DNA of 34,229 nucleotides from positions 1 to 34,229 of the forward strand of contig REDP01000165.1 of assembly GCA_007693455.1 (NCBI GenBank). Reading direction: 5' to 3'. Position 1 is the first letter of the stretch. Each line of letters opens with the position of its first letter. Both the position numbers and the translations under genes were made by a program. Below the pieces are notes generated by a model that saw nothing but the letters and a program-made list of their open reading frames with translations, ran no database searches and was not told the origin of the DNA. This DNA comes from Planctomycetota bacterium (GTDB lineage Bacteria > Planctomycetota > UBA11346). Of this stretch, positions 1,951 through 34,102 are shown in pieces.

Positions 1951-2184
1951 AGTGCCTTGAGGCCGCAGATTCTCCGCCAGGCCACAATGGCTGTCACATC
2001 GTGATGTCTGCAGCGTTGTATTTCTGAGTCGGCAGGCTCTTCTTGTATTGTGTAGCTGTGCTGCCTTTACTGTACAACGGCTATTTTCCCCCGGAGCTTG
2101 TATCGAATGCTGGGGGGGTTACGCTGTCTGTTTCGGACATGGTGTATGGGGGTGGTCGGATCGCCCCAAAAGGTGGTAGGAAGT

Positions 2185-3804
2185 ATGGCGATGTTTATTC
2201 CGCAAATTACACAGAAGCGTTTGCTGGGCATGGTTGGCCTTCCGGTGATTTTCAGTATGATTTTGGCCTGTACTGGTGGCCCCGATGGCGATGATGACCA
2301 GCCGCAACCGTCTTCGCCCGTGAGCGATTCGGCACCCAGCAGCGACCCTGCCCAGCAGTCGCCAGAGGAACAATCGCCCGAAACAGAAGCGCGTGACGAG
2401 TCCGCCTCGGCAACCGCTGAGCCAGCTCCCACAGCAGCATCCGCTGGCGATGATGAGGTGGCTGCCGAGCCCGCGGCCCAAGACGCTGCCTCAGCCAGCG
2501 ATGGTGACGAGGAGTTGGCTGAACTTGTGCGTCAGCTTGATTTTACCACGGCCCGTATGCGTGCTTTGGCCCGTGCCGAGGACAGTGCTGACAGTGCCAC
2601 GGCAACCGAGTATCGTGAATTGGCAGGGCGTTACAGCGCCTATGCCCAAGAATTGCCCAGTGTGCGCGAGCATTTTGCCTTACTCGCTGGCAATCAGCAG
2701 CACCGCAATGCAGCCATGGCCGAAATATTTCAAGGCGGCGCGCTGACGCGCAAAGTTATGGCGGCGGTAATTGCGCCAGATGTGCAGGTTACTGACGATG
2801 ATAGTGAGATTCTGCCAGTGGTGCTGGAATTGGCCCGGGCCTTGGAATTCAGCGATGGTTTTCAGCCCGCCCTGCAGCGCCATGCCTCCCTACCTCCGGG
2901 GGAGTTGCGTCAGCAGGTGAGCGATCATCTCCACCGGCAAGCCGAAACCGATCCCCCAAGCTATGCCGCGCACATTGCCAAGCATGTGCGCACCACTGAT
3001 CCCGTGGACCTCGTGGACTTGCTCCCCATGGTGACGATTTTTATTCAGAACCATGATATGGGCGATGAGCAGTTCCAGCAGGACTATCGTGGTATTCTCC
3101 GCCAAGCTGCGGAGGCCCTGCCTGAGGATGAACAGCTCTTGCGCGGGCAGTTATTTACTGCCGCGGTGGAATTGCAGGACCAGCAATTCTCGCAAGAAAT
3201 CATGGCTCTGCTTGGTTCAGGTGCGGCCGATATGGAGGGGCTTCCTCCCGGTTGGACCCTCGCTGATATTGGTGATATACAGCTAGCCGGTGAGGCGCAA
3301 TTTATTGACGGTGCCTTTGTGCTGCACGCCGCAGGCGACTCTTTTTGGGGCAATGAAGACGATATTTCTATGATCTGGCGTAAGCGCAGCGGTGATGTTA
3401 GTATGCGCGCTCGCTTGGATTCCATTGCAGATGTGGATGAATGGGGCAAGGGCGGTATTTCCCTGCGGCACAGCCTTGATGCGGATGCGGTGCATGCCTC
3501 AATCCTTGCCTCTCCCGGCGATGAGCCTGGGTATCGCTTTGTGCTGGGTCATCGAGACCGTAAAGGGGGATCCACCTCCAATTCTGGGTCACATTTTCGG
3601 CCCTTACCCGCATGGATTGAGCTCCGGCGCAGCGGCAATGAAGTGATTGCGCTGATTTCCTCGGACGGTGAAGAGTGGGAAGAGTTTGCTCGCCAAGAGA
3701 TAGATTTTCCCGATGAAATCTATGTGGGTCCGGTGCTCAATTCGAGTATCGCAGATCAACGCGGTACCATGAAACTGACGGTGCCGCTGGATGAATTATT
3801 TTAG
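2185..3804 (+). CDS. Lipoprotein with C-terminal ConA-like (DUF1349-type) domain
   Basis: This predicted lipoprotein has about 539 residues. A hydrophobic signal segment (GLPVIFSMILAC) ends in a lipobox Cys about 29 residues from the start at 2185. That start follows GGTAGGAAG; an ATG at 2191 is also possible, while upstream in-frame ATGs lack a ribosome site. After the Cys comes an Asp-, Pro-, Ser-, Ala- and Glu-rich tract of roughly 100 residues, typical of a surface tether. A helical region of about 270 residues without recognised motifs follows. The last 150 residues look like the ConA-like lectin/glucanase fold seen in DUF1349-type proteins (KGGISLRHS, WIELRRSGN, SSDGEEWEEF, VGPVLNSS). 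No catalytic residues are evident. A carbohydrate- or surface-binding role is inferred from the domain and the sugar-catabolic neighbourhood. Confidence 0.75.
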   Translation: MAMFIPQITQKRLLGMVGLPVIFSMILACTGGPDGDDDQPQPSSPVSDSAPSSDPAQQSPEEQSPETEARDESASATAEPAPTAASAGDDEVAAEPAAQDAASASDGDEELAELVRQLDFTTARMRALARAEDSADSATATEYRELAGRYSAYAQELPSVREHFALLAGNQQHRNAAMAEIFQGGALTRKVMAAVIAPDVQVTDDDSEILPVVLELARALEFSDGFQPALQRHASLPPGELRQQVSDHLHRQAETDPPSYAAHIAKHVRTTDPVDLVDLLPMVTIFIQNHDMGDEQFQQDYRGILRQAAEALPEDEQLLRGQLFTAAVELQDQQFSQEIMALLGSGAADMEGLPPGWTLADIGDIQLAGEAQFIDGAFVLHAAGDSFWGNEDDISMIWRKRSGDVSMRARLDSIADVDEWGKGGISLRHSLDADAVHASILASPGDEPGYRFVLGHRDRKGGSTSNSGSHFRPLPAWIELRRSGNEVIALISSDGEEWEEFARQEIDFPDEIYVGPVLNSSIADQRGTMKLTVPLDELF

Positions 3805-14032: not shown

Positions 14033-14365
14033 GGAGGTATTCCTTGGTGTAAATAGGGGCAGCGTGGATGTCACAGTAAAGGTTATCTCTCTTACGTAAT
14101 ATGGCTCCCAGCGTTCACCTACAACCTTTTGCTGGACTCAGCGGCAGTATTGGACAGCATAGCAAGTTCGTAGCCGCCCCTTGATCAAGGTGCGGAGCGT
14201 GCCCAGGCTGTGGTGTACTATGATACACAAGCTGACTGGGTGCTTTAGGCCACGCTGCGATCGTGGTGCCACGGCATGCGAGCGGTCTGCCTCGTCAAAG
14301 CTATCTTGCTGGGATGGCTGAAGGGTAGACTGCGGCGCATTTTTTTTTTGCTTCGGGAGCACGTT
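14033..14365. promoter_or_regulatory. Divergent promoter region, aminomutase/secreted hydrolase
   Basis: This stretch of 333 bases separates two divergent genes and should hold both promoters. Visible structure is a short hairpin (CCACG 14250-14254, CGTGG 14262-14266) and a run of ten T at 14340-14349, just before the aminomutase ribosome site. No riboswitch or tRNA was recognised. Confidence 0.4.
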
Positions 14366-19213: not shown

Positions 19214-20077
19214 TTAGGCGGATCCCAGCAGTGCACGTCGTAGGGGCTTGGGCAGAGTAAAGAGTCGCGGAGTAAGGCTTGGTTCCCACAAGGTTAAATC
19301 CTCCAGCCAGGAAACCTGATGATCATGAAGCTGCCGTGGGTCGCCACTGTTGGAGGCCCAGGCAAAGGCCATACTTCCGCCAGGAAGACTGGGAATGCCG
19401 ATGGTATAGGGGTAGACATGGGTAAACATGGCCGAAAGCTCGCTCAAAGTTCGGCGGCAGCTCTCGCCATCGTGAAAGGGACTGCCCAGGGGGCATACCA
19501 GAACCCCATTGGGGCTGAGGTGGCGATTGAGGATCTCAGCGAAGCTGTGGGCGTGGACGGTTTCGCTGGCCGGATCATAGAGATGGGCAGCATCAATAAT
19601 AATCAGGTCAAAGCGTTGCTGGGGATCGAGATGAGCCATGTAGCGATGGCCATCATCAATGATCAGGGTTACCCGAGGATCATCAAGGCCACGAGCTAAA
19701 TTGGGGAAATGGCTGCGGCATACCTCCACCACGCGCTGATCGATTTCCACGACTTGGACGCTGCGGAGATGTGGATAGCGGGCCAGTTCGCGCGCCACTC
19801 CACCATCGCCACCGCCAATAATACACGCATGCTCCACCTTGGGGTGGGCATGCATAGCGGGATGGGCTAGGGCCTCGGCGTAGAGATCTCCATCGGCATC
19901 GGTAAGGACAATTTCACCCCCCAAATCCAGCACCTTGCCAAAGGCAGGGGAGTCATACACGGCCAAGCGTTGGAAGGGGGTGCACTCCGAGTGCAGTACC
20001 CCGCGTAGGCGTAGGCGTAGGCCTACATCTCCACCGTGGAGATGTTCCAGCCAGAGATCCAGCAGTTCTCCGCTCAT
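19214..20077 (-). CDS. Spermidine synthase-like aminopropyltransferase 2
   Basis: This 287-residue protein has the aminopropyltransferase fold. The decarboxylated-AdoMet-binding GGGDGG is at residues 88-93, EID at 111-113 and DDGHRY at 141-146. In the catalytic loop the usual D-x-x-D-P reads D162-A-A-H165, so the first Asp is kept but the second, a putrescine-binding residue in known spermidine synthases, is His. This suggests a different amine substrate or an altered enzyme. Its ATG overlaps the decarboxylase stop (ATGA) and has AGGAG 8 bases upstream. It is distinct from the more canonical copy at 21289-22245 in the same operon, not a recent duplicate. Confidence 0.85.
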   Translation of the reverse strand: MSGELLDLWLEHLHGGDVGLRLRLRGVLHSECTPFQRLAVYDSPAFGKVLDLGGEIVLTDADGDLYAEALAHPAMHAHPKVEHACIIGGGDGGVARELARYPHLRSVQVVEIDQRVVEVCRSHFPNLARGLDDPRVTLIIDDGHRYMAHLDPQQRFDLIIIDAAHLYDPASETVHAHSFAEILNRHLSPNGVLVCPLGSPFHDGESCRRTLSELSAMFTHVYPYTIGIPSLPGGSMAFAWASNSGDPRQLHDHQVSWLEDLTLWEPSLTPRLFTLPKPLRRALLGSA

Positions 20078-21222
20078 TGGGGAAGCTCCTCTTCGATGAC
20101 CACAATACGGGTCTTGGGAAAAAAGTTGAATTCCGTGGCGCTGGCGGCGGTGTAGGCCCCCATCATGGGTGAAATAATGCAGTCACCAGGCGCTAAATCA
20201 GGGAGGGGGATGCCCTCGTAGACCACATCCACCGAGTCACAGGTGGGGCCGGCTACCACTGCTCGCTGCCGTGGGCTTTCGTCGCCTTCCAGTTCACGCA
20301 GGGTTATCACGCTGTAGTCGCAGTGATCGTAGAGTTTCCCTGAATAACTCCCATATAAACCTTCATCCAAGTAATACCAACGTACCCCATTGCGATCCGA
20401 CTTACCCATGACCGAGGAAACCAAGGTCATGGCTGGGGCGCTTATAAAGCGTCCGGGCTCGGCAATCAGGCGCACTCCGGGAAAGGTGCGTTCCAATTCA
20501 TTGCGAATGGGCGCGCAGAAATCCTGAATCGGCAGCATGGGCTCGGTATAGGGTACGGGAAAGCCGCCACCAATGTCCAGGGTATCGAGGGTAATCCCCT
20601 CTAATGCGGCGAGAGAGAAGAGGCGCCGGCAAAAGCCAATGGCTTCCAAGTATTTGCCCGCATTACTGCACTGGGAGCCCACATGGAATGCAAGCCCGCG
20701 AACCGTGAGGCCCATGCCCTGGGCCTTGAGTAAAAGATCCAGCGCTTCATGCGGTTGTACGCCAAACTTATATGAGAGATCCACAATCGCTTCGGGACTG
20801 CGAAAGGAGAGCCGCATCAAGAGCTGTATACGATCGGCGTAAGGAATAAATTTAGGTAATTCGTAGGGGTTATCGAAAACAAAGGTGGTAATGCCTGCAT
20901 CCAAGGCGTAGCGAATATCACTGTCGCGTTTGATGGGATGGGTGTGGATAATGCGCCCAGGGGCGATGCTTTGCTGGCGAACGACATCGACTTCGCCGTT
21001 TGAGCAGACGTCAAACCACGCCTGCTCTTGATCCAGAGCCGCCACTACGGCTGGATGAGGGAGGGGTTTCAGGGCATAATGCGGCTCAACCCCAGGGAGG
21101 GCGGCGCGGAAGGCCCGATATTGATTGCGCACCACTTCTGTGGAGAGCAGGAGCAGTGGCGCACCGTGGCGCTCAATGCAGGTGCGGATAGTGGTGACTG
21201 GCGGGAGTGTGGCGAGATACAC
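20074..21222 (-). CDS. PLP-dependent ornithine/lysine-type decarboxylase
   Basis: This fold-III PLP decarboxylase of the ornithine/lysine/diaminopimelate family has about 382 residues. The PLP lysine is in HYALKPLPHP near residue 52. AFHVGSQ, LDIGGGFPVPY, the EPGRF phosphate loop and the catalytic-Cys motif GPTCDSVDVV all match ornithine-type enzymes rather than diaminopimelate decarboxylases. The likely reaction is ornithine to putrescine or lysine to cadaverine, feeding the flanking aminopropyltransferases. The GTG at 21222 is chosen because GAGGG lies 5 bases upstream; a TTG at 21234 is the in-frame alternative without a ribosome site. Substrate choice cannot be fixed from sequence. Confidence 0.9.
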   Translation of the reverse strand: MYLATLPPVTTIRTCIERHGAPLLLLSTEVVRNQYRAFRAALPGVEPHYALKPLPHPAVVAALDQEQAWFDVCSNGEVDVVRQQSIAPGRIIHTHPIKRDSDIRYALDAGITTFVFDNPYELPKFIPYADRIQLLMRLSFRSPEAIVDLSYKFGVQPHEALDLLLKAQGMGLTVRGLAFHVGSQCSNAGKYLEAIGFCRRLFSLAALEGITLDTLDIGGGFPVPYTEPMLPIQDFCAPIRNELERTFPGVRLIAEPGRFISAPAMTLVSSVMGKSDRNGVRWYYLDEGLYGSYSGKLYDHCDYSVITLRELEGDESPRQRAVVAGPTCDSVDVVYEGIPLPDLAPGDCIISPMMGAYTAASATEFNFFPKTRIVVIEEELPQ

Positions 21223-21288
21223 GAGAGCCCTCAATGGCGTAGTGGCGAGTGGAGCGGCAAGTGGAGAGACGAGCGCACAAATGGTGTT

Positions 21289-22245
21289 CTATGGAGCTTT
21301 GGAGGAGATGGATAATTCCGAGAGATCGCGGTTAATGTCAATTTCATCTGCAAAGCGCGGATTGGCATCGGTGATAATGGGCAGGTCGCGGGCTGCCCCA
21401 CGCAGGCGCGCCACATAGGGGAATTCCACCTGCATGGAATGATGTGTTTGAGGACTGTAGACTTCAAGGCCTTCTATATGGCGTTGCAGCAAACGATTGG
21501 CAACCTCATCACTGCTGAGTGCGCCAAGCAAGGGACGGTTACTGGAAACCGCCACCGCCCACAGCACCGCGTACATCTGAATGTAGATGTAGAAGACATT
21601 GGTATAGGTGAATACCTCGCCCAGGGTGCCAAGTATTTGTTGGTAGGCGCGAGGTCTAGAAATGGGTGATTCGGCGTGCATCACAAAGATGCCGTTGTCG
21701 TCGCGCAGGCGTCCCTGAACCGTTTGGAAGAAATCCTTAGTATAGAGCATGGTGCTGGGACCAAAGGGATCGGTCATGTCCATGATGACGGTGTCGAAGG
21801 TGTCACTGGTAGACTCGAGATATTTACGCCCATCACCAATTTCCAGACGTACGCGAGGATCGTCAAAGGCACCCTGACTCATTTCCGGGAAGTATTCACG
21901 GCACACCTCAACCACCTGGCCATCAAGCTCTGCTTGGACCACTTCCTGGGGGTGATGTTTGAGCACTTCGCGGGCAATGCCCCCATCTCCAGCACCAATG
22001 ATCGCTACCGAACGTGGATCAGGATGAGCCGTAAGAGCTGGGTGAACCATGGTTTCATGGTACAACCAGTCGCGTTTTTCGGCGACCTGGGTGATATTAT
22101 CCAAAAGCATGACCTTGCCCATCTCTTCGGTGTGCACCACTTCAAGGAGCTGGTAATCGGTTTGGCGCTTATGAATGCTATGGTTGATGGTATAGAAAAA
22201 GCCAAATCCAGGATTGAGGCGCTCGGCTAAATAGCGGGTGGTCAT
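21289..22245 (-). CDS. speE: Spermidine synthase (aminopropyltransferase 1)
   Basis: This 318-residue canonical polyamine aminopropyltransferase carries GAGDGG at residues 84-89, the ribose-binding ELD at 106-108, GDGRKYL at 138-144, and the catalytic pair D156 and D159 in DMTDPFGPS. The N-terminal LLLDNITQ and WLYHE are also standard. It moves the aminopropyl group of decarboxylated AdoMet to putrescine. The start is ATG 22245 with GAAGGA upstream; the open frame runs 98 codons further but that part is compositionally unlike protein and overlaps repeat DNA. It is first in a minus-strand operon followed by the decarboxylase, a second synthase, ackA and pta. No AdoMet decarboxylase gene is seen nearby. 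Confidence 0.93.
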   Translation of the reverse strand: MTTRYLAERLNPGFGFFYTINHSIHKRQTDYQLLEVVHTEEMGKVMLLDNITQVAEKRDWLYHETMVHPALTAHPDPRSVAIIGAGDGGIAREVLKHHPQEVVQAELDGQVVEVCREYFPEMSQGAFDDPRVRLEIGDGRKYLESTSDTFDTVIMDMTDPFGPSTMLYTKDFFQTVQGRLRDDNGIFVMHAESPISRPRAYQQILGTLGEVFTYTNVFYIYIQMYAVLWAVAVSSNRPLLGALSSDEVANRLLQRHIEGLEVYSPQTHHSMQVEFPYVARLRGAARDLPIITDANPRFADEIDINRDLSELSISSKAP

Positions 22246-22292
22246 GTGGTTATCCTTCGATAGTAGAAGAGAGAGCAGAGACTCGGGTTCAG

Positions 22293-22329
22293 GGCAACGC
22301 AAAGCTTGCCAAGGGAAAGGCATGCCCGC
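22293..22329 (+). repeat. 37-bp dispersed repeat, copy A
   Basis: Starts GGCAACGCAAAGCTTGCC and ends GGCATGCCCGC. The reverse complement of 23584-23620 matches it at 34 of 37 positions. The two copies lie in opposite orientation on either side of the kinase gene. Confidence 0.75.
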
Positions 22330-22404
22330 TTCGCAGGGCAAGTTGTTCGCACACAAGCGCCCTATTTGGGGCGTTTTATGCTGGCCGATCAGGAGATCAG
22401 CGCC

Positions 22405-22432
22405 CCCAGGGCGAGCTTTGCGCCGCCCTGGG
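22405..22432. other. GC-rich hairpin in the speE leader region
   Basis: Perfect 9-bp stem CCCAGGGCG (22405-22413) and CGCCCTGGG (22424-22432) with a 10-base loop. It is enclosed by a second 9-bp pairing (22305-22313 with 22433-22441). There is no adjoining T-run, so it is not a standard terminator. Confidence 0.5.
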
Positions 22433-22632
22433 CTTGGCAAGAGCACCTGTGCCCAGCCTCTGGCGGGGCTACTATCACGCTTGGCGGTGTTGCTCAAGCG
22501 CGCCTTGTCCAGCGCGCATCCACTTTCCTTGTGAAGCATGGGAGAGGAGTCGCTTGACCATTGCTGGGCGGACTGGCATACTTGATTTCACCAAGCCTTT
22601 GGCTTCAAGCACTGGTAGGAAAGTTTCCCCTT

Positions 22633-23553
22633 ATGCCCGCACCATCTGTTTCATCTAATACCACTCGCATGTTAGGGCCCTATGTCCTGGGTCCGCGCGT
22701 CGGACTTGGCGGCTTTGCTGAAGTGTTCAAAGTCCAGCACCATCAAAGTCACGAGGTGGTGGCAGCAAAGGTGCTTCGCAAGGAATTCGTTCAGGACAGT
22801 AGTGCTCTAGAAGGTTTCGAGCGGGAGGCTTCCATGCTGCAGTCGCTGGATCTGCGCGGCATCCCGAAGCTAATCAAAAAGGATCGGTTGGGCGATCGAC
22901 CGGCACTGATTATGGATTTTATTCGCGGACATCCCCTGCATAAGTTCCTTCAGGAAAAGATTGAATTTGACAAGGTGAGTAGCTTAACCGCAATGATTCG
23001 GCTGGTCGCGAGTCTGCATGCTGCTGGAATCCTCCATAATGATCTCAAGCCCGAAAACTTTATGCTGGGAAGTGACAATACCGTTTATCTTGTGGATTTT
23101 GGCAATGCGACCCATGCCAGCGATAAGATGTCGTTGTTGGGTCGTTTGTTTCGTCGTCGGCGCAGCATCAGTGGTACTCCAGCCTATATGGCCCCTGAGC
23201 TCATCCGTGGTGGTGCACCCAATTACCGTACCGATGTCTATGCCTTGGGGGCCTGTGCCCATTACGTTCTCACTGGGCAAACCTTGATCGAAGGTAGCGG
23301 TGCAACCTCGAAAATGCGTAAGGCGGTAAAGGGGAAGCAGAAATCGGTCTCCGAGCGGATCTCCCGTTTGCCGCGTGATTTGGTGCAAATAGTGGATCGT
23401 GCCTGTTCGCCCGATCCTGACATGCGCCCCTTGGATGCGCAAAGCATGAGCCATCAATTACAACGGCACTTTAAAAGTGGCTACTATCGTAAGCCTACCG
23501 AGCTCAATAGTGTGCTCAACCGCCTGAAGGCCCAAGAGCACTCATCGGGATAA
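22633..23553 (+). CDS. Small eukaryote-like Ser/Thr protein kinase
   Basis: This compact kinase of 306 residues has no membrane segment or sensor domain. The glycine loop is GLGGFAEV (24-31), ATP-binding Lys46 is in VVAAKVL, the catalytic loop is HNDLKPEN (135-142), the metal-binding motif is DFG (155-157), and APE is at 187-189. All catalytic residues are present, so it should be active. The loop reads HND rather than HRD, a non-RD form that usually does not depend on activation-loop phosphorylation. An Arg-rich stretch (RLFRRRRS) lies in the activation loop. The start at 22633 follows TAGGAAAG at a slightly long distance. fabD follows after 157 bases containing a repeat. Confidence 0.92.
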   Translation: MPAPSVSSNTTRMLGPYVLGPRVGLGGFAEVFKVQHHQSHEVVAAKVLRKEFVQDSSALEGFEREASMLQSLDLRGIPKLIKKDRLGDRPALIMDFIRGHPLHKFLQEKIEFDKVSSLTAMIRLVASLHAAGILHNDLKPENFMLGSDNTVYLVDFGNATHASDKMSLLGRLFRRRRSISGTPAYMAPELIRGGAPNYRTDVYALGACAHYVLTGQTLIEGSGATSKMRKAVKGKQKSVSERISRLPRDLVQIVDRACSPDPDMRPLDAQSMSHQLQRHFKSGYYRKPTELNSVLNRLKAQEHSSG

Positions 23554-23710: not shown

Positions 23711-24643
23711 ATGTCTATCGCAGCCGTATTTCCTGGACAAGGCGCCCAAGTGGTGGGTATGGGAAGCAGTCTAGCCGAGCGCTTCCCCAGTTGTCGGCGT
23801 ATACTCGATCAAGCAGACGATATAATGGATATGGCCTTATCGGACATTATCGCCAATGGTCCGATGGAAGACTTAACCCGCACTGATATGAGTCAGCCTG
23901 CGATTCTGGTGGTTTCTTGGATGGCCTATACTGCGTTGACCGAAACCTTCCGTGATCTTCGTTTTAGTGCCGCCGCAGGCCTCAGCCTTGGCGAGTATAC
24001 GGCATTACTGGCCGCAGATGCGATTGATTTTCCCGATGCCTTGCGTTTGGTGGCGTTGCGTGGTCGTGCCATGCAGGAAGCCGCCGAAGCCCAGCCCAGT
24101 GGCATGGTGGCATTAATTGGAGCCGATGAGGCGGGCGCTAATGCCTTATGTCAGGCGGTGGCCCAAGGCGAGGTCTTGCAGGTCGCGAATCTCAATGCAC
24201 CGGGCCAAGTGGTGATTTCAGGAACCCAGGAAGCATGCGATCGTGCCGTGGCGGCAGCCCGCGAGCATGGTATTCGCCGTGCCATGCCGTTGCCAGTGGC
24301 GGGCGCCTTCCATTCGCCACTTATGGCGCCTGCGGCAGATCGTCTTGCTGCAGCCTTGGCCGAGGTTCCCTTCCGCGATCCGCAGATTCCCGTGTATGCC
24401 AACGTTGATGCAGCACCGGTTACCACAGCCGAGGCCATTGCCCCGTCATTGGTGCAGCAGTTGACCATGCCTGTGCGCTGGGCAGATAGTGTTCAGGCCA
24501 TGCTTGTCGGTGGTGCTACCACTTATATTGAAATGGGTCCCGGCAAAACCTTAAGCGGTATGATTGCGCGCACGGTGCAAGGCGTGACCTGTCATAATAT
24601 CGCTGAAGCTGAGGATGTCTTTACGGTTGGCGGCAGCGCCTAA
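23711..24643 (+). CDS. fabD: Malonyl-CoA:ACP transacylase
   Basis: This 310-residue FabD loads malonyl groups onto acyl carrier protein for fatty acid synthesis in the cytoplasm. It shows FPGQGAQ at residues 7-13, the nucleophile Ser92 in GLSLGEY, an Arg in ALRGRAMQ that holds the malonate carboxylate, and catalytic His199 in GAFHSPLM. The GPGKTL near the C terminus is also typical. Length matches the family. The start at 23711 has GAGGG 5-6 bases upstream. It stands apart from other fab genes in this window, behind the kinase gene, and converges with phoH. Confidence 0.96.
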   Translation: MSIAAVFPGQGAQVVGMGSSLAERFPSCRRILDQADDIMDMALSDIIANGPMEDLTRTDMSQPAILVVSWMAYTALTETFRDLRFSAAAGLSLGEYTALLAADAIDFPDALRLVALRGRAMQEAAEAQPSGMVALIGADEAGANALCQAVAQGEVLQVANLNAPGQVVISGTQEACDRAVAAAREHGIRRAMPLPVAGAFHSPLMAPAADRLAAALAEVPFRDPQIPVYANVDAAPVTTAEAIAPSLVQQLTMPVRWADSVQAMLVGGATTYIEMGPGKTLSGMIARTVQGVTCHNIAEAEDVFTVGGSA

Positions 24644-24681: not shown

Positions 24682-25986
24682 CTAGAGTATTTCCGCGGCA
24701 AGCCCGGCTAAGGGAGAGCGCTCCGCTTTGGCGAGGGTAATGTGGCCGGAAATCTCTTGGCCACGCATGCGCTCTACCAGATAGGTGAGGCCATTGGAAT
24801 TGGCGTCCAAATAGGGGTTGTCAATTTGGTACGGGTCGCCAGTGAGGATAATGCGGGTATTGACGCCAGCGCGGGAGATAATCGTTTTAATCTCATGGGG
24901 GGTGAGATTTTGTGCTTCATCAACGATTAAAAAGTGATTGCTGATGGAGCGGCCGCGAATGTAGGTGAGGGCTTCAAGGGTGATGGTTTCTTCTTTGAGG
25001 AGCCGTTTGATCACCTCATCAGGGTCGCGTTCTTCGCTACCAAGAATAAATTGGAGATTGTCAAATATTGGTCCCATCCAGTGCGTGAGCTTTTCGTCTT
25101 TACTGCCAGGAAGATAGCCAATGTCTTTCCCCAGGGGGATGACTGGTCGCGAGACCAGTAATTTTGCCTGCGCCTCATCACGAAGAACTTTTTGCATGCC
25201 GGCGGCAATGGCGAGAAGGGTCTTGCCGGTACCCGCGGATCCCACCAGGGTGATGAGTTTTATCTGATCATCGAGGAGAAGGTCAAAGGCGATGCGTTGC
25301 TCAAGGTTGCGCGGAGTAATGCCGTAGAGCGGACCTTTCATGGCCTCAAGTGAGCGCAGGTGTTTACTGGGGCGGTGATAGCGTCCGAGGACGGTGTGTT
25401 TGCGATCATCAGCATCCACCAGCAAAGCGTACTCATTGGCATTGAGGCTGTCGGGACTAATCGGCAGTGACCCTGAAGACTCAAAATCGCTGACAGCTTT
25501 GCCCGGCATGGTCAAGGTGCGCCAGCCGCGATACAGTTCATCAATATTGACTTTTTGGTTTTCAAAATCCTCACAGATAATACCCAGAGCATCGCCCTTA
25601 ATCCGAGCGTTGATGTCTTTAGAGACGAAAACAACGTTATGGCCCTCGCGTTTGAGGGCATGGGCACAGCCAAGAATGCGATTGTCATTTACCCCAGGTA
25701 AGAGTTCCTCTAACAGGTCGTAGCGTAACACTACCTGAACCAGTCCACCGCTATCGGTGGGAATGCCTTCACGTAGGCTTCCCTTTTGCCGCAGACGATC
25801 GAGAGTGCGCGCAACCTCGCGACTATTGCGGCCCAGTTCGCTGCCGCCAGCCTTGAATTTATCAAGCTCTTCAAGAACGGTTATGGGAATGACAATATGA
25901 TTATCGGCAAAAGAAAATATCGCATTGGGGTTGTGGAGGAGGACATTGGTGTCGAGAACAAAGGTTTTACTAGAGGCATCAATCAT
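24682..25986 (-). CDS. PIN-PhoH family protein
   Basis: The 434-residue fusion has an N-terminal PIN ribonuclease-type domain (FVLDTNVLLHNP, VLEELDKFK, a later Asp in FVSKDINAR) and a C-terminal PhoH ATPase domain. Walker A is GSAGTGKTLLA, Walker B is FLIVDEAQNLTPHE, and LTGDPYQID follows. This is the PhoH2/YlaK layout, for which RNA unwinding and cleavage has been shown in mycobacterial members. The PIN acidic residues seem present, so nuclease activity is plausible. It lies 65 bases downstream of the 1497-residue fusion gene and may be co-transcribed with it. Confidence 0.93.
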   Translation of the reverse strand: MIDASSKTFVLDTNVLLHNPNAIFSFADNHIVIPITVLEELDKFKAGGSELGRNSREVARTLDRLRQKGSLREGIPTDSGGLVQVVLRYDLLEELLPGVNDNRILGCAHALKREGHNVVFVSKDINARIKGDALGIICEDFENQKVNIDELYRGWRTLTMPGKAVSDFESSGSLPISPDSLNANEYALLVDADDRKHTVLGRYHRPSKHLRSLEAMKGPLYGITPRNLEQRIAFDLLLDDQIKLITLVGSAGTGKTLLAIAAGMQKVLRDEAQAKLLVSRPVIPLGKDIGYLPGSKDEKLTHWMGPIFDNLQFILGSEERDPDEVIKRLLKEETITLEALTYIRGRSISNHFLIVDEAQNLTPHEIKTIISRAGVNTRIILTGDPYQIDNPYLDANSNGLTYLVERMRGQEISGHITLAKAERSPLAGLAAEIL

Positions 25987-26051: not shown

Positions 26052-29000
26052 TTAGCGAACGGTTTCAGGGGGTTCATGGATCATCAGGAGGCCTTCGCCA
26101 AGGACCACAATGCCATTGGTGTTATCGGGGAGATTGTGCTCGAAGACCACCCGCTCGCCATTGGGTTGAGTGGCATCAAGTTCCCAATTGTTTTCGCCGA
26201 TAAGAATGCGGATAACTGTAGGGGTGGCTCCGAGTTCCGGCACCGCGAAGGGCACAAAATCTCCATCGGTGCCTTGATCAAGGGGGCCAACGCGAATGCG
26301 CATGGGCGCATTGCCCGTCACCTTTATGGTGATGCCCTTTTCCCCCTCACGCAAAGGTATGCCCAGTCCAGACATCATTTCGCCTTCAGGAACGATGATC
26401 GCCGGAGATTCAGGGTCTTTGACGGTATCGCCATAGGGAGTTAAGCCGAGCGAGGTGAGCGCCGCTTGCTTGCGGGCAACGTTTTCGGCGTGCACGGCAT
26501 CGCGACGTCCAAAGCGATGGATGGTCACCTGGTCCATGGCAATTTCGCAGCCCCCCGTGGTGCTAATGCGCAGTGAAGGGGAAGTTCGTGGAACCCGCAC
26601 CTGTATGGGATCCAGGCGATTCACAGTGATGATCATGTGTTGCTGCAGGGGGTCATGCTGCATGCGCAGGCTGTGCTTGGTCGTGGTGTCAAAGGTGAAT
26701 TCATGATGTTGGGTAGTGCTTAAACCGGCGCTGTGAATGCTGAGGCGGTTGTTTTCCGGATTACCAGTGATGGTGACCCCGCGGAAATCAAAGGAAAAGG
26801 TTCCCTGACGATTGCGCAGGCTCCACGACACTTCAAGGCTTTCGGCATTGCCTAAATCATCGCGTTGCAGATGGCTGCTGGCGCCGCTGCTGCTATAGGT
26901 GCCTGCAGCGATCATCCAGCCACTGCGCAGTGGAAAGGCATTGCGGTGATCGGGATCATCAAAGGTAAGGTCATCGAAATCTTGCCCACTTCCCGCAATG
27001 ATGGTGTCGCGTTCTGAGCTGAGGTGATCGATGGCTTTGCGGACTTGTTGATGTTCATGTAAAGGACTGGAGCGAAGTTGCTCGATAACCGTCTCTAGCG
27101 CGCGTGTATCGCGATGCGCCACAGCCTCCATGCCATTACGTACAGTGGAAAAGAATTCACGGTCGATGTCCATCTGCAAGAGTTGCTGCAATTGCTCATG
27201 GTGATCGTAGGATGCCTGTTGAGCGCTTTGCACGATGCGCGCGGCTTGGGTGCGTTGCCCCGCAACCATATTGACTACTGCGGCAACGGCCAGATGTGGG
27301 CCTTCCATGCCTTGACTGCGTGCGACTTGTTGAAACAGGTTCGCAGTTTCATCAATGCCGATGTCGCTCCAGCGCATGGTCATGGTGCTTCCGGTGGGAG
27401 AGCGAATAGCCAAGCCATTATCGGTGGGGGCAACAACGTCCCAGGATCCGCCGGCAACGGGGTTGTTGATGCGAAGGCGGGATTGATGTGCTTCGATGGC
27501 GTGCTGGATAGTGGCAGCCCGTTGAAACCATAGATCTATGCGTTGGGCGATCAGTCCATAGTGCGGATCATCGGCAGGAAGCGAGGCAATGGCTTCGTTG
27601 GCTGCTGGGCGTTGGCTGGGGCTGCTGCGAAGGCTGTTTACCAAGCGTGCATCAGCTTCAAGGGCGGCTCGACTAAAGCCGCTGGGACTTACCTCAGGGA
27701 CAGTGAAGTCTCCTGCTTGGGCCAAGCTTTCTTCATCCTCGTCTGCGACCTCAGCAGGGCTGTCATCTGGCTGTGATGGCGTAGGCGTGTGTGGCGCTGC
27801 TTCTACCGCTTCAGGGGCCTGGGCAATACGCTCTTGTGCCCACTCGCTGTCGGCGTCGTCCATCCCCCAGCGCTCTAGGGCAGGGTTGAGCAGTTGTTGC
27901 AGTTGGTTTCGGTTGCCAGTATGGGCTTCGGCTTCTTGGCGGAGTGTATCGCGGGCACGTTCATATTCACCCTGCACGGCTTGCAGAAGCGCACTGCGGG
28001 TTTCATTATCACCTAAATTTTCTTGAATATATGCCTGGGCATCGGCAAAGCGCTGCTCGCGACGAAGGTGGCCTAATTGTAGTTGTTGTTGGGCGCTGAG
28101 CTGGCTGGGGCCGCTTGTGCGCGGAGTGTCTGGCTCAGGAGCGCGAGGGGTGGGGCTTTCCGTCGCGGGCGGATCGATATCTGCTGGATCGTCTTGGCTG
28201 GCAATGCTATCTCGATATTGGTCGCGAAGGGTGCGCAGGCGATGTTCCAGAGCGCTGCGTTGTGGTCCGCTTACTCCGGCGACTGCTTCCCGAGCAGCCT
28301 GGTAGAGACTGTCATCCTCAGGGGATTGACTATAGGCCTCCACTGCTTGGGTTGCTCGCGTTTGTGGATTGGTGATCCGCTCGCGCTGGCCTTCGGATGG
28401 GGAGGGAGAGGCGCTGCTTTCCTCCTCGTTTGGTGCGGCAATAGCGACTTGCGTGTGCTGTTGCTGCATATGCAGAACGTAGGCGATTGTGGCCACCAAA
28501 AGCAGGGCCATACCGGCAATAATAACTATCCCACCACGGCTCATCCCCGACTTGCGCCGGCCAGCACCACGACGATACGAGCCAGTCTCGTTGTCGCGTC
28601 CGGGGCGATAGTTGCCAGTGCCGCGCATGGTGGTAGTAGTCGTCCCAGGGACGGTTTTACGGGTGCGTCGACCAGTGTTTTCACCGGTGAATGTTCGTGT
28701 CCCACGTCCGCCAGCACCACTGAGCGGGCCGGTGCCGCCACGGGTGCGTGAGCCGGTTTCGCTGCGGCGTTTGGCCCCTGTTTGCGAAAGGGTGCGTCGC
28801 TTGAGGCCAGCAAAACAGCGCTCAATGGCTTCGATCACTTCGCCATAGTGTTGGAAACGCTCACGGCGTTCAGCGCTAGTGAGGCGAGTGAGGAGGGAGG
28901 CGATGTCGCGGGGAAGGGTTTCGGCAAAGGCGCGCACGCGCTGCTGGCCCGTGGCATTAAAGCGGTTTAAGGCCTCAATGGCATTGAGTCCAGTGACCAA

Positions 29001-30545
29001 CCCTTCGGCAGAAAGCATGCGATAGAGCAGGCTTCCCAGAAGGAAGAAGTCGGTGCGCAGATCGGATGGAGCATCGTTGAGGAGGTGTTCTGGGGCCAAG
29101 TAGAATTCGGTGCTGGGGCTTTGCCCAGTCATGGCTGGAACCAGATGGGCATGGGCTTTGGGGATGCCAATATCATCTACGATCACCCGACCATCACCAG
29201 CTACCAGTATGGAAGATGGGGTGAGATGTCCGTGGATAACCCCACTGCGGGCAGCCTCTTCAAGGCCTAGGGCAACCTGCTGAAGCACTTCCATGGCTTG
29301 TTGCTCACCAAGATTGCGACGGCGGGCAAGGACATGGGCGAGGCTTTCAAAATCTGGAGTGTCGTCACTAATAATGTAGGCACGTGGGCCCTGCCAGCGC
29401 AGAGAGTTGATGGGAAGCAGATTGGGATGCGATACTTTTGCCGCCATACGCACATAGGGCTCAATCTGCACCCGATAGCCAGGGCTGGCGAGCATCTCGG
29501 CATTAATGCGGAAGGCCCGGACTTTGCGCCCCTTTTGCTGATCATAGAGACGGAAGCGTTGTCCTAAAGGATTGTCATCAAGTTCTTTGATCAGGTCAAA
29601 ACCAGCCAGCTCGAAGGGGGCGATACCGTTTGCGGAGCTCGTATTGCTGACGCTTGGGCGTAGGGCATCATGGCTGCTGATGGGGCTTCCAGGGCCGCTG
29701 GGCACACTTTGTAAGCCGTAGCTGGCGGTTCCAGTACCGGCGTGGGAATGATGCTGACTGCCTTGGGGCGCTTCCAGGGGTGCGGGACCGGTAAGCCCCG
29801 TGTCGGGATTGATGACTTGAATGGTGGCTCCGCATGATCCACAGGTAAAGACATCTCCAACCGCAGCCTCCTCCACCTCAAGCATGGATTCACAGGCGTG
29901 ACAGCACAATAACCAGCCATCTTGCTCGCTACTTACCAAGCTCGGCTCTGGCCCCTGAGGAAGGGTGCTCAAAGCATTTTCGGCTTCAGGTACCAAGATG
30001 GAAGAAATGGTGAGCCACGCTGCATCCACGCCCTTGCCGTCGGTAGCCACGGTTTGAATTGATGGCGCGGAAAGATGGTTGAGCAGCGGGTCAAGCTGTG
30101 TTGGGGGTAAGGAGGCAGAGTCATCACTGTGGTTATAGGCAATAACCATGGGCAGTTGCTCAGGCAGTTGATGGCCGCGTAGCTGCTCAAGCAGGTCGTT
30201 CATTCTATCGATGTTATTATCGAGTTGCTGGCGACGGGTGTCGGCAATAAAGATCACTGCATCGCTGGCCTCAACCAAGGCCCGCCGCGCAAGTTTGGAG
30301 CGCGAGCGGCCGCTGAGGGTAATGATCGTTGCCAGCAGGGGGCGACCGCTAATGGTCACTTGCTGACCACTGTCCCAGACGAAGGCTTGCGCTTCTTCGC
30401 CCTCGAGATCAATCGCTTGAATGGCCGTACAGGCATCTTCGCCGAGATGTCGATGCAGGGCATGCAGGAAAGTGGCACGGCCTGAATGAGTAGCGCCGTA
30501 GAGCACAATCTTGCAGGCTACTGCTCCATTGGGGGTCACGTACAT
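26052..30545 (-). CDS. MglA-like GTPase/pseudokinase membrane fusion
   Basis: The protein has 1497 residues. Residues 1-190 resemble MglA-type Ras-like GTPases (KIVLYGATHSGRATFL, SDAVIFIADT, VIAYNHSD), but the P-loop lacks the Lys and Ser/Thr (GRA) and NKxD reads NHSD. A zinc ribbon follows (C215, C218, C235, C238). Residues 311-575 form a protein kinase fold without a glycine loop. The ATP Lys is Arg346 and HRD reads HGH (438-440); the DFG-type Asp (D458) and APE remain, so it is a pseudokinase. A linker rich in Arg and Thr-Gly (583-665) leads to one membrane helix (672-692). The exported ~800 residues include Gln-rich helical parts and a ConA/LamG-like domain around 1215-1370. Probably a signalling or scaffold protein between cytoplasm and periplasm. 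It lies 86 bases after lspA. Confidence 0.8.
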   Translation of the reverse strand: MYVTPNGAVACKIVLYGATHSGRATFLHALHRHLGEDACTAIQAIDLEGEEAQAFVWDSGQQVTISGRPLLATIITLSGRSRSKLARRALVEASDAVIFIADTRRQQLDNNIDRMNDLLEQLRGHQLPEQLPMVIAYNHSDDSASLPPTQLDPLLNHLSAPSIQTVATDGKGVDAAWLTISSILVPEAENALSTLPQGPEPSLVSSEQDGWLLCCHACESMLEVEEAAVGDVFTCGSCGATIQVINPDTGLTGPAPLEAPQGSQHHSHAGTGTASYGLQSVPSGPGSPISSHDALRPSVSNTSSANGIAPFELAGFDLIKELDDNPLGQRFRLYDQQKGRKVRAFRINAEMLASPGYRVQIEPYVRMAAKVSHPNLLPINSLRWQGPRAYIISDDTPDFESLAHVLARRRNLGEQQAMEVLQQVALGLEEAARSGVIHGHLTPSSILVAGDGRVIVDDIGIPKAHAHLVPAMTGQSPSTEFYLAPEHLLNDAPSDLRTDFFLLGSLLYRMLSAEGLVTGLNAIEALNRFNATGQQRVRAFAETLPRDIASLLTRLTSAERRERFQHYGEVIEAIERCFAGLKRRTLSQTGAKRRSETGSRTRGGTGPLSGAGGRGTRTFTGENTGRRTRKTVPGTTTTTMRGTGNYRPGRDNETGSYRRGAGRRKSGMSRGGIVIIAGMALLLVATIAYVLHMQQQHTQVAIAAPNEEESSASPSPSEGQRERITNPQTRATQAVEAYSQSPEDDSLYQAAREAVAGVSGPQRSALEHRLRTLRDQYRDSIASQDDPADIDPPATESPTPRAPEPDTPRTSGPSQLSAQQQLQLGHLRREQRFADAQAYIQENLGDNETRSALLQAVQGEYERARDTLRQEAEAHTGNRNQLQQLLNPALERWGMDDADSEWAQERIAQAPEAVEAAPHTPTPSQPDDSPAEVADEDEESLAQAGDFTVPEVSPSGFSRAALEADARLVNSLRSSPSQRPAANEAIASLPADDPHYGLIAQRIDLWFQRAATIQHAIEAHQSRLRINNPVAGGSWDVVAPTDNGLAIRSPTGSTMTMRWSDIGIDETANLFQQVARSQGMEGPHLAVAAVVNMVAGQRTQAARIVQSAQQASYDHHEQLQQLLQMDIDREFFSTVRNGMEAVAHRDTRALETVIEQLRSSPLHEHQQVRKAIDHLSSERDTIIAGSGQDFDDLTFDDPDHRNAFPLRSGWMIAAGTYSSSGASSHLQRDDLGNAESLEVSWSLRNRQGTFSFDFRGVTITGNPENNRLSIHSAGLSTTQHHEFTFDTTTKHSLRMQHDPLQQHMIITVNRLDPIQVRVPRTSPSLRISTTGGCEIAMDQVTIHRFGRRDAVHAENVARKQAALTSLGLTPYGDTVKDPESPAIIVPEGEMMSGLGIPLREGEKGITIKVTGNAPMRIRVGPLDQGTDGDFVPFAVPELGATPTVIRILIGENNWELDATQPNGERVVFEHNLPDNTNGIVVLGEGLLMIHEPPETVR

Positions 30546-30631: not shown

Positions 30632-31252
30632 CTAATCGCCGCCCTGTGATCCGCTGTGCTGAGGATTTTGCACCGTTGATGGTTGCTTACAAGGGGCGGG
30701 TCTGTTGAAAAATGAGCCTATGATTACCACTATCAGGCCAACGGTTATGCCGCTGTCAGCGATGTTAAAGGTTGGCCACACATAATTGATGCCGATCACA
30801 TTGAGATCGCAGTGGATGAAGTCTCGCACCCCACCATAGCCGCCACCTGGAAGGATGCTTAAAAAACGATCGTAGGCATTGCCCAAGGCGCCGCCGATAA
30901 TCATCGCAAAGCCCAAGTGATCGCTGCCGCGAGGGCTACTGCGCATGACCAACCAGTAATAAGCAATGAGGCCGGGGATAAGCACCGCCGTCAGAGCAAC
31001 GATCAGCCAAGGGGTTTGCGCGCCAATGCTCCACGCCGCACCAGGGTTAATCTGCGGTACCAGCCAGCCGATGTCACGCCACTCCATCTGCAGCATGGTG
31101 AGCCAGAGCGGGAACTCCAGCTGGGTCTCTGCGCCACGAAAAACCAGCCATTTGCTCAAGAGGTCAAGCAAAAGCACAACGGTGGCAACACTCAAAAACA
31201 TCGTACGCCATGGCCAGGACTGTGGCTGTATGTCTGTGGAGGGTTCACTCAT
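30632..31252 (-). CDS. lspA: Lipoprotein signal peptidase
   Basis: This signal peptidase II of 206 residues is an integral inner-membrane aspartic protease that removes signal peptides from prolipoproteins. The catalytic Asp residues are D144 (GGVRDFI) and D166 (FNIADS). GNAYDR at 124-129 and LDLLSKW at 29-35 are the other conserved boxes. Four membrane helices are visible. It is longer than average (about 160-190) because of N- and C-terminal extensions. It would act on the lipoprotein encoded at 2185-3804, among others. It is divergent from folP and followed on its own strand by the 1497-residue fusion. Confidence 0.95.
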   Translation of the reverse strand: MSEPSTDIQPQSWPWRTMFLSVATVVLLLDLLSKWLVFRGAETQLEFPLWLTMLQMEWRDIGWLVPQINPGAAWSIGAQTPWLIVALTAVLIPGLIAYYWLVMRSSPRGSDHLGFAMIIGGALGNAYDRFLSILPGGGYGGVRDFIHCDLNVIGINYVWPTFNIADSGITVGLIVVIIGSFFNRPAPCKQPSTVQNPQHSGSQGGD

Positions 31253-31406: not shown

Positions 31407-32276
31407 ATGGCCAGTAAACAGGACGGTGTTGGAGATATTCCGTGTTTACGCTGGGATGATACCGCCCGCGGTGCTGAACTTATGGGCATTCTCAATGTTA
31501 CCCCAGACAGTTTTTCCGATGGCGGCAGGCTGGAGAGCCCATCGGCAGTGGTGGAACACGCTCGTCTACTCCTGACGGCTGGCGCACAGGTGCTTGATCT
31601 TGGGGGGGAAAGTACGCGGCCAGGTGCGCAGGCAGTATCCCTCGAGGAGGAGTGTGCTCGCGTCCTGCCCGCACTCTCAGTGCTGCGCCAGACCTTTCCC
31701 CAAGCCCTGATCAGTGTCGACACCCGTCACGGCGAGGTCGCCGAGGCCGCCCTGCGCCAGGGTGCAGTGATGATTAACGATGTGAGTGGTGGAGAAGACC
31801 CGCGACTCCTTGCCGCCGTGGCTGCTGCCGATGCGGCGGTGGTGCTCATGCACAAGCAAGGCGAGCCAGCCCACATGCAGGACGCCCCTCGTTATCACGA
31901 TGTGGTGTCGGAAGTGAGTGAGGCATTGTGTAACAGCATTACGCGCGCGCTTGCTGCTGGGGTGCAGCGGGAACGCATTCTCGTTGATCCAGGGATTGGC
32001 TTCGGGAAAACGGTGGTGCATAATTGCGCCCTCCTGGCGGCCCTGTCGCATATTCACCAGCACTGCGCCCGGCCTCTCTTGGTGGGGCTGTCGCGCAAGC
32101 GCTTTTTGTCCGCTCTCTTGGCTCAAGACCTGGATAACGCCGAGCGGGATCAAGCCAGTCACATCCTCCATGCCATGATTGCTCCGCGCTGCGCACTCCT
32201 GCGGGTGCACGATGTATCTGGGGCCCGGCGCGCACTCACCCTTGCACAGGCGCTCGCGCCTGATGGTATGCACTGA
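31407..32276 (+). CDS. folP: Dihydropteroate synthase
   Basis: This protein of 289 residues joins p-aminobenzoate to dihydropterin pyrophosphate in folate synthesis. Seen are GILNVTPDSFSDGG, LDLGGESTRPGA, SVDTRHGEVA, MINDVSGG, VLMHKQG, DPGIGFGKT and GLSRKRFL, the whole set of pterin- and phosphate-binding motifs. The start at 31407 has GGGGA about 8 bases upstream. It is the first gene of the folP-cdaA-ybbR cluster and its stop lies 1 base before the cdaA ATG, so translation is probably coupled. Confidence 0.97.
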   Translation: MASKQDGVGDIPCLRWDDTARGAELMGILNVTPDSFSDGGRLESPSAVVEHARLLLTAGAQVLDLGGESTRPGAQAVSLEEECARVLPALSVLRQTFPQALISVDTRHGEVAEAALRQGAVMINDVSGGEDPRLLAAVAAADAAVVLMHKQGEPAHMQDAPRYHDVVSEVSEALCNSITRALAAGVQRERILVDPGIGFGKTVVHNCALLAALSHIHQHCARPLLVGLSRKRFLSALLAQDLDNAERDQASHILHAMIAPRCALLRVHDVSGARRALTLAQALAPDGMH

Positions 32277-32277
32277 T

Positions 32278-33051
32278 ATGGATTGGGATGAAACCTACTT
32301 TCGTATAATCAATCCCTTGCTGCAGATCACCATTCTCAGTGTGCTGATCTATTGGCTGTTGACATCATTGGAAAAGATCAGCGCTGCAGTGAAGCTACGC
32401 GGATTGGCCATAGCCCTGTTGCTGATTGTGTTCGCGGCTTTGGCGGCCCGCTTGGCTGGATTACACGCGCTCAATTGGTTGCTTCAGCACGCCATTAGTT
32501 TCTCAGCTATTATCTTGGCGATTATCTTTCAACCCGAAGTGCGCCGCCTCTTTACCCGTATGGGAGGCATATTAGGGGGGCAGGTAGCCGGTGATAACGC
32601 ACAAATTATCGATCAGCTCGTGGCAGCCGTTGAATACATGGGAGCCAGACGCATCGGCGCCTTGATCATCATTCAACGCAACGATCGTCTCGATGATTAT
32701 ATTCAGGCGCAACCCCTGGATGCCCAGATCACCACCAAACTCCTCTGTACCATTTTCTGGAAGGACTCGCCCCTCCATGACGGAGCATTGATTATCTCCC
32801 AGGGGCGAATTGCCGCCGCAGGGGTCATTCTACCACTCACCGAAAACTTTGCGTTTAAGGACCTCTCGGGAACGCGCCATCGAGCAGGTATTGGCATTAG
32901 CGAGGACACCGATGCCATGGCAATTCTGGTATCAGAAGAGACGGGAATAATATCCCTGGCTGATCGCGGCAAGTTTACCCGCAACCTCAGTGGAGATGAT
33001 CTGCGCATCGTTCTCAATCGTACCTTTGGACGCGATAAGGGCAGTACATGA
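32278..33051 (+). CDS. cdaA: Diadenylate cyclase CdaA
   Basis: A membrane diadenylate cyclase of about 257 residues, making c-di-AMP from two ATP. Three N-terminal membrane helices (about residues 10-32, 40-60 and 66-84) precede the DisA_N-type cyclase domain with SPLHDGALII (DGA at 168-170) and GTRHRAGIGIS (RHR at 200-202). The start at 32278 directly follows the folP stop; an ATG at 32263 inside folP is the alternative. Next comes ybbR, whose product (CdaR) regulates CdaA in Firmicutes. The same pair here indicates a working c-di-AMP module for osmotic or cell-wall control. Confidence 0.95.
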   Translation: MDWDETYFRIINPLLQITILSVLIYWLLTSLEKISAAVKLRGLAIALLLIVFAALAARLAGLHALNWLLQHAISFSAIILAIIFQPEVRRLFTRMGGILGGQVAGDNAQIIDQLVAAVEYMGARRIGALIIIQRNDRLDDYIQAQPLDAQITTKLLCTIFWKDSPLHDGALIISQGRIAAAGVILPLTENFAFKDLSGTRHRAGIGISEDTDAMAILVSEETGIISLADRGKFTRNLSGDDLRIVLNRTFGRDKGST

Positions 33052-33067
33052 TCCAGGGAGCGTGGCA

Positions 33068-34102
33068 ATGAATTGGCTTATGCGGCGTTGGCAGCTCAAG
33101 CTTTTGGCGGTGGCCATGGCAGTGGGATTGTATCTTTTTACGGCAACCCAAATTACCGTAGAACGCACCCTTACTGTGCGCGTCAGCGAGCAACATATTG
33201 AAGGCCTTGATGGGAGTTTTCTCGTTTCTCATCTGAGCCCACGTGAGATTGACATCACCATAGCGGGGCCCCATGCGATTATTGAAGAGGTCAACCCACA
33301 GGCAATCGAGCCCGTCTTGCGTATCTCCAGCGAAGGCTTGATTGCGGGCTCGCAAGAGTTTGACATTACCGAACGCTTATTGCTCCTCAACCCCAACCTC
33401 ACCTTGCGAAGTTCGAGTGTGCCAAGGATTCGCGCCGAATTTTCCCGAGTTATTGAAGATGTCCTCAACCTTGAGGGCAGGCCAGCGATTAGTGGATTGC
33501 CTGAAGGATTGCGCGCGGATGTCTCATTGGCTCGGTCGCAAGTGCTTGTGCGTGGCCCAGCCAATGTCATTGCTGATTTGCGTGCGCGCGGACGGTTGGC
33601 TGTGCGGCCGATAGAGCTCACCGACATTCCCACCGATATCACCGAGCCCATGGAAATACGCGTACCCCTGGTGATGCAAACGGATGAACCGAGTATTCGC
33701 ACCATCGAACAACCTGAGGCGGTCATACGCATTTCCCCAGCCCCAGAGACCCGTGTTGTGGGTCCAGTTCCAGTGAACTTGCTGGTAGCGCCAGACTCCC
33801 TCAGTCGCTATGAGGTAGTCATCGAGCCTGGCGTTATCGCCCTTACCGTAAGTGGTCCCGTCAACCGCATGCGTGAAGTGGATGTAGCCAGTCTGATTCG
33901 CGCCTTTGTTGATGTAGTGGACATTGAACGCAGCAGCAGCGGGGAAGATAGAGTGGTGCGTGTCGTGGCTCCTTCCTGGCTCACCGTAGCACCCTCCCAA
34001 GTACGCGTCAGCGTGCGCCCACGCCACGACCAAGGCCTAGCCCCCATGCCATTCGTAGAACCCAACCAACCCGAACCTCCCCCACCACAAAACGGCGAAT
34101 GA
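33068..34102 (+). CDS. ybbR: YbbR-domain protein, probable CdaA regulator
   Basis: The 344-residue protein has one N-terminal membrane anchor (LKLLAVAMAVGLYLFTATQ) and then repeated YbbR-type beta domains, shown by VERTLTVRV, REIDITIAGP, VLVRGPANVIADLRARG and LTVSGPVNRMREV. The C terminus is Pro- and Gln/Glu-rich. In Firmicutes the homologue CdaR binds CdaA and controls c-di-AMP output; a like role is inferred from its place 16 bases after cdaA. The start at 33068 follows AGGGAG. Earlier in-frame ATGs overlap the cdaA coding end. Confidence 0.92.
   Translation: MNWLMRRWQLKLLAVAMAVGLYLFTATQITVERTLTVRVSEQHIEGLDGSFLVSHLSPREIDITIAGPHAIIEEVNPQAIEPVLRISSEGLIAGSQEFDITERLLLLNPNLTLRSSSVPRIRAEFSRVIEDVLNLEGRPAISGLPEGLRADVSLARSQVLVRGPANVIADLRARGRLAVRPIELTDIPTDITEPMEIRVPLVMQTDEPSIRTIEQPEAVIRISPAPETRVVGPVPVNLLVAPDSLSRYEVVIEPGVIALTVSGPVNRMREVDVASLIRAFVDVVDIERSSSGEDRVVRVVAPSWLTVAPSQVRVSVRPRHDQGLAPMPFVEPNQPEPPPPQNGE

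Follow-up and report, generated by a model that had tools for sequence, protein, structure and literature searches.

Closest described systems

MglA-like GTPases determine the polarity of myxobacterial cells; many planctomycetes divide by budding and are unusually organized. MglA (Myxococcus xanthus, Thermus thermophilus) is a soluble single domain of ~195 aa. The protein described here is encoded in a stretch of 34,229 nucleotides from a Planctomycetota bacterium (GCA_007693455.1, contig REDP01000165.1; hereafter, the window). It shares the Ras-like fold of MglA, which is the best solved-structure match of its N-terminal domain, but it is a membrane protein of 1497 aa whose MglA-like N-terminus is devoid of the nucleotide motifs. 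The pairing of MglA with its GAP, MglB, has a counterpart in the planctomycete class that carries the fusion: sister genera have roadblock genes on either side of a stand-alone mglA. The small Ras-like GTPases of prokaryotes were surveyed in 2014; that survey does not mention planctomycetes and excluded sequences longer than 240 aa, so that proteins of the fusion type lie outside it (PMC4316618).

Transmembrane Ser/Thr kinases of the PknA/PknB type share with the fusion a kinase fold (TM ~0.78), a juxtamembrane stretch, one transmembrane (TM) helix and an extracytoplasmic sensor-like region. They differ from the fusion orthologues, which have neither the catalytic residues nor PASTA repeats and carry MglA and zinc-ribbon modules in front of the kinase fold. 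The pseudoGTPase domains of p190RhoGAP (PMC5593906) are likewise Ras-like domains of a large multidomain signalling protein, with motifs that are defective yet conserved. However, p190RhoGAP is eukaryotic, its architecture is unrelated and the loss was shown biochemically: its pG1 domain showed neither a thermal shift nor a MANT-nucleotide signal when nucleotide was added (PMC5593906).

Two planctomycete proteins of family f18 also have an MglA-like domain N-terminal to a Ser/Thr kinase (L047:2513-4621, minus strand; L151, 738-aa frame, minus strand). In these, the GTPase is intact, the kinase motifs are active (HRD, DFG) and no zinc ribbon was seen; they appear to have arisen separately from the fusion described here. 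Shared descent with the fusion is unsupported for L047, which is probably a separate fusion event, judging from its GTPase sequence, since this falls outside the fusion clade. Another planctomycete family includes a 934-aa protein (L142:589-3393, minus strand) that combines a degenerate MglA-like domain, an active Ser/Thr kinase, a second kinase-like domain with HGWLRP at the HRD position and a C-terminal TM helix. Planctomycetes have thus combined MglA-like with kinase-like domains repeatedly, and the fusion as such is correspondingly less novel. What is new here is a class-wide pseudokinase version with a zinc ribbon, followed by a later pseudo-GTPase step. Ras-type pseudo-GTPases of bacteria appear to be little described. 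In the open-access literature, none were found, nor was anything related to MglA together with a pseudokinase.

Organization of the fusion protein

The fusion gene and the parts of its product are given below. Coordinates are those of the window; residues are those of the protein.

26052..30545, minus strand: fusion gene, 1497 aa (MglA-like pseudo-GTPase, zinc ribbon, pseudokinase, TM helix, exported region)
29976..30545, minus strand: MglA-like domain, residues 1-190; Ras-like fold, all nucleotide motifs altered (sequence E=1.5e-11; Foldseek 3t1o, TM 0.87; motif comparison)
30471..30497, minus strand: broken P-loop GATHSGRAT, residues 17-25 (Lys to Arg23, Thr to Ala24)
29811..29915, minus strand: zinc ribbon, residues 211-245, LysW-like
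28800..29612, minus strand: pseudokinase, residues 312-582; APE kept; beta3 Lys, alphaC Glu, HRD Asp and catalytic Asn lost
29226..29234, minus strand: HRD position, HGH (residues 438-440); HGW in most orthologues
28473..28529, minus strand: single TM helix, residues ~673-691 (hydropathy 2.76; position conserved among orthologues)
26055..28472, minus strand: predicted exported region, residues 692-1497; helical segments, then beta domains
26514..26930, minus strand: ConA-like jelly roll, residues ~1206-1344 (AF2 pLDDT ~90; CBM66 4b1m, TM 0.65)

The open reading frame begins with ATG and is uninterrupted (no internal stops). Its multidomain product of 1497 aa departs from the MglA family, whose members are single domains of less than 240 aa. 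With Pfam, only a truncated protein kinase was detected (PF00069, E=1.7e-12); the N-terminus has no Pfam match. An earlier note, made from the sequence alone, had proposed an MglA-type domain, a zinc ribbon, a kinase fold, one membrane helix and about 800 exported residues with a ConA-like region. This content and order proved correct according to sequence matches, AF2 models and Foldseek: the single helix is present, residues 692-1497 follow it as the predicted exported part, and the ConA-like region corresponds to the jelly roll. The absence of a Ras-like or kinase fold, which would have spoken against that proposal, was checked; both folds are found in the AF2 model (residues 1-607, built from 18 orthologues, mean pLDDT 80).

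The TM helix is preceded by an Arg/Lys-rich stretch, from which an N-in/C-out topology is predicted by the positive-inside rule. The exported half (AF2, mean pLDDT 84) consists of helical segments, the jelly roll and a C-terminal beta domain. It contains no known Pfam domain, and Pfam gives only scattered weak matches in its relatives. The best Foldseek matches of this half, large proteins with lectin-like sandwiches (botulinum complex proteins, laminin G, galectins), were rejected as kin (TM 0.1-0.35, rmsd >10 A: generic fold matches); the jelly roll is the only fold assignment retained for this half, and it is absent from several shorter orthologues. Glycan binding by the ConA-like domain would be a guess made at the level of the modelled fold.

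Distribution and conservation of the locus

The genes that flank the fusion are on the same strand:

30632..31252, minus strand: lspA (signal peptidase II), upstream neighbour (Peptidase_A8, E=1.1e-27)
24682..25986, minus strand: PIN-PhoH gene (PhoH2-like), downstream neighbour (PhoH, E=1.8e-46; PIN_4, E=2.4e-33)

Both neighbours had been named in the earlier note and were recognized by Pfam; the PIN-PhoH gene scores below the cut-off of NF053827. The fusion was found in 22 of the 23 genomes examined from one class of uncultured Planctomycetota, the exception being a genome that is 62% complete. No full-length fusion (>600 bits) was found in the 271 genomes sampled elsewhere in the phylum (294 genomes in the whole sample); the other planctomycete matches listed cover essentially the GTPase part alone and reach at most 229 bits. 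A single-sequence search for related loci gave no match; the family alignment retrieved mostly Planctomycetota MAGs. Identity of the window protein to its orthologues is 49% within the genus and ~29-39% across the family.

The order lspA, fusion, phoH is kept across the class on one strand, and the three genes often overlap or lie within ~100 bp of each other. Among the 21 loci examined (window included), lspA is upstream of the fusion in 18; of the other three, two are cut by the contig start and one is an extra paralogue of G009. phoH is downstream in 14, and contig ends cut most of the remaining loci. The extra paralogue (L042:9308-12181, plus strand) is located apart from lspA and phoH and has PGG for PGQ and NGQA for NKxD.

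An artefact of annotation or assembly, i.e. sequencing errors or a chimeric ORF, might be suspected because the MAG that yielded the window is fragmented (334 contigs). This reading has a negligible probability: it is refuted by a 1501-aa orthologue (L028, from the window genus), which has lost the same motifs and belongs to a genome assembled separately, and by the presence of the fusion in almost the whole class with mostly the same gene order.

A pseudokinase throughout the class

The zinc ribbon is located between the GTPase and kinase folds. Its four cysteines (C215/C218 and C235/C238, CxxC/CxxC) are invariant across all aligned orthologues, and its nearest Pfam model is LysW-like.

The kinase domain has the fold of Hanks-type Ser/Thr kinases according to Pfam (Pkinase) and Foldseek (AF2 domain versus mycobacterial PknA/PknB, TM ~0.78-0.8). 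In the window protein, the beta3 Lys is replaced by F345, HRD by H438-G439-H440 and KPxxN by TPSS; the alphaC Glu is lost, the glycine loop is absent and APE (484-486) is retained. The loss of the catalytic Asp, ATP-binding Lys and glycine loop had been noticed from the sequence and is borne out, with one correction: the Asp of the DFG position is present (D458-I-G), whereas most orthologues have E or G there, usually Glu. No orthologue copy has the beta3 Lys; the HRD position is HG[W/H/F/Y] (HS in one paralogue), and neither the alphaC Glu nor the catalytic Asn is kept, so that all orthologues having the kinase domain are devoid of the four catalytic residues. The APE motif, the alphaF Asp and the alphaI Arg are retained, and an invariant Arg-Arg has appeared at 408-409. 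The domain thus combines a kinase fold, lost catalytic motifs and conservation, as pseudokinases do. Some pseudokinases can bind ATP or catalyse through other routes. A special kinship with the second (HGWLRP) kinase domain of L142 was rejected, as its score is below those of ordinary active kinases.

Loss of the nucleotide motifs in one genus

Residues 1-190 match solved MglA structures by sequence alone (MglA being the best match, E=1.5e-11); the GTPase domain of an orthologue (L030) matches with E=8.4e-51. The modelled domain superposes on MglA-GDP (3t1o; TM 0.87, 2.2 A), and MglA is thus the closest Ras-like fold by both sequence and Foldseek.

Intact orthologues carry GPGxxGKTTN, ERT, PGQ and NKQD. 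In the window protein, the P-loop is G17ATHSGR23-A24-T25 (canonical, GPGxxGKTTN), the Arg-finger/Mg motif ERT is E50-E51-A52, the catalytic-Gln motif PGQ is S78-G79-R80 and NKxD is N138HSD141; the broken P-loop and the NHSD variant had both been read correctly in the earlier note. The genus mate L028 has GAPDSGRST, EAA for ERT and NRCD for NKxD. Among the 19 aligned copies, the motifs are intact in 14. Five copies lack the catalytic Gln (window, L028, L040, L042, L044) and four have an altered NKxD. The P-loop Lys is lost only in the window protein and L028, which are also the only copies to have lost the P-loop Lys, Arg finger, Gln and NKxD together and hence have none of the nucleotide-binding and catalytic motifs of MglA (GKT, R53/T54, Q82, NKxD). 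Erosion is partial in G009 (L040, PGE and NKQH; L042) and in G004 (L044, PGA).

The design had been described as doubly degenerate. This holds for the kinase, which is dead in all orthologues; the GTPase is fully broken only in the window genus. Intact homologues, which would have pointed to sequencing errors, do exist; the losses are nevertheless not errors, since they are common to two separately assembled genomes.

It had also been proposed that the protein is a nucleotide sensor. Such a role remains conceivable for the intact orthologues and is unlikely for the window copy, because every nucleotide-contact motif of its GTPase is gone. A module that binds nucleotide through a non-canonical pocket would agree with the fully retained Ras fold of the model and with the DFG Asp of the window pseudokinase. 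Against this, the P-loop has Arg for Lys and Ala for Thr, NKxD is NHSD and the kinase has neither beta3 Lys nor glycine loop; a sensor of this type is considered unlikely.

Constraint on the altered GTPase

Between the window protein and L028, identity is 66% for the GTPase, 76% for the ribbon, 63% for the pseudokinase and 36-50% for most of the exported part. Only dN (0.28 for the GTPase, 0.31 for the pseudokinase) and identity were interpreted, as synonymous sites are saturated. The tree groups the fusion GTPases in a single clade (100/100) that excludes the stand-alone MglA encoded by these genomes, indicating a single origin. Long branches may be misplaced inside this clade, the inner order of which was not used. 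The stem of the window genus amounts to 2.46 changes per column and its tips to 0.29-0.35. A long stem with short tips corresponds to rapid change that then gave way to constraint, a pattern that a repurposed domain should show and a decaying one should not. A Ras-like fold, lost motifs and persisting selection, which together define a pseudoGTPase, are all found in the window domain.

The GTPase of the window genus could instead be a functionless, decaying remnant, with only the pseudokinase and exported parts mattering. The loss of all nucleotide motifs, the very long stem and the disappearance of the usual roadblock regulators (see below) would fit. However, the domain is as similar to that of the genus mate as the pseudokinase is, its dN equals that of the pseudokinase (synonymous sites being saturated) and its fold is intact in the AF2 model; decay is thus improbable. 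The architecture and evolution of the fusion are well supported; what follows on its function is inferred.

Roadblock genes and stand-alone mglA

Genes of the Robl_LC7 (roadblock, MglB-type) family were found in 18 of the 23 genomes of the class. Ten clusters were examined; as far as contigs reach, the order is Robl-Robl-mglA-Robl (in sister genera, e.g. L122:3741-6948 and L124:8546-10072), and the stand-alone mglA of these clusters has a longer C-terminal part. No Robl gene was detected by Pfam or by a family-specific profile in the two genomes of the window genus (G000 and G001), where the coupling to a roadblock/MglB-type protein that characterizes MglA was thus not seen. A stand-alone mglA is present in both; that of G000 has intact motifs and is located well inside a contig. 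G000 and G001 are MAGs that are 91% and 86% complete, so their Robl copies could be missing from the assemblies; the other three genomes devoid of Robl are 68-72% complete. Loss of Robl and loss of the nucleotide motifs coincide, but one genus is one evolutionary event and allows no statistical test. The partial erosion of the GTPase in G009 and G004 arose with Robl genes present.

In M. xanthus, the roadblock protein MglB works on MglA by shifting its Arg53/Thr54 loop into the active site, and hydrolysis is abolished in MglA with the Q82L mutation (PMC6876712). The equivalents of Arg53, Thr54 and Gln82 are all lost in the window protein.

The fusion might act through stand-alone MglA, its domain mimicking MglA or competing for its effectors (decoy or pseudo-partner) and not being a switch of its own. 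The retention of stand-alone mglA in both window-genus genomes and in sister genera, and of the MglA fold in the domain, would be in keeping with this; the distance between the fusion clade and stand-alone MglA in the tree would not. Such a role is considered rather unlikely.

A possible scaffold across the inner membrane

The best explanation, put forward tentatively at just short of an even chance, is a single-pass inner-membrane scaffold in which the GTPase-pseudokinase combination is ancestral and the GTPase later became a pseudo-GTPase in the window genus. The scaffold role itself is a best guess made from sequence and models. A cytosolic MglA-like GTPase, zinc ribbon and pseudokinase would be joined by one TM helix to an exported region, whose ConA-like part may bind or sense the cell envelope. 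The pseudokinase, dead throughout the class, could serve as a fixed docking or allosteric platform, and the MglA module may position the complex. In most of the class, this module would keep a GTP switch of the MglA/roadblock type, the motifs of which it retains, and the roadblock proteins whose genes adjoin stand-alone mglA may switch it off. In the window genus, the roadblock genes would be gone and the module would have lost all nucleotide motifs in one burst before coming again under strong constraint. These three features make it most likely that the module has become a nucleotide-independent pseudo-GTPase, which would offer a permanently set docking surface. A link to polarity or to the cell envelope, suggested in the earlier note, would fit this scheme.

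The wider proposal, a class-wide trans-envelope scaffold combining a pseudokinase and an MglA-type switch that became a pseudo-GTPase in one genus, which also lost its roadblock regulators, is plausible but short of probable. Across a whole class, the fusion builds an MglA module and a membrane pseudokinase into one polypeptide. Intact and broken versions of the GTPase are available side by side, and the role of the nucleotide cycle can therefore be tested by comparison. If the proposal is true, bacteria would offer a natural example of a Ras-like signalling protein that became a double pseudoenzyme in two steps.

Other genes of the window

Two long ORFs have no assigned domain: 2098-3804 (plus strand), 568 aa, no Pfam match; 11288-14074 (minus strand), 928 aa, no Pfam or NCBIfam match. 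A divergent block (31407-34102, plus strand) encodes FolP (dihydropteroate synthase), a DAC-domain cyclic-di-AMP synthase and a conserved 370-aa protein; this block also adjoins lspA in L028, L040 and L046. A polyamine cluster (19214-22539, minus strand) consists of two spermidine-synthase-like genes around an Orn/Arg/DAP-decarboxylase-type gene. A Ser/Thr kinase gene (22561-23553, plus strand) encodes HND for HRD, the catalytic Asp being retained, and is followed by a malonyl-CoA acyltransferase-like gene (23711-24643), assigned by sequence only.
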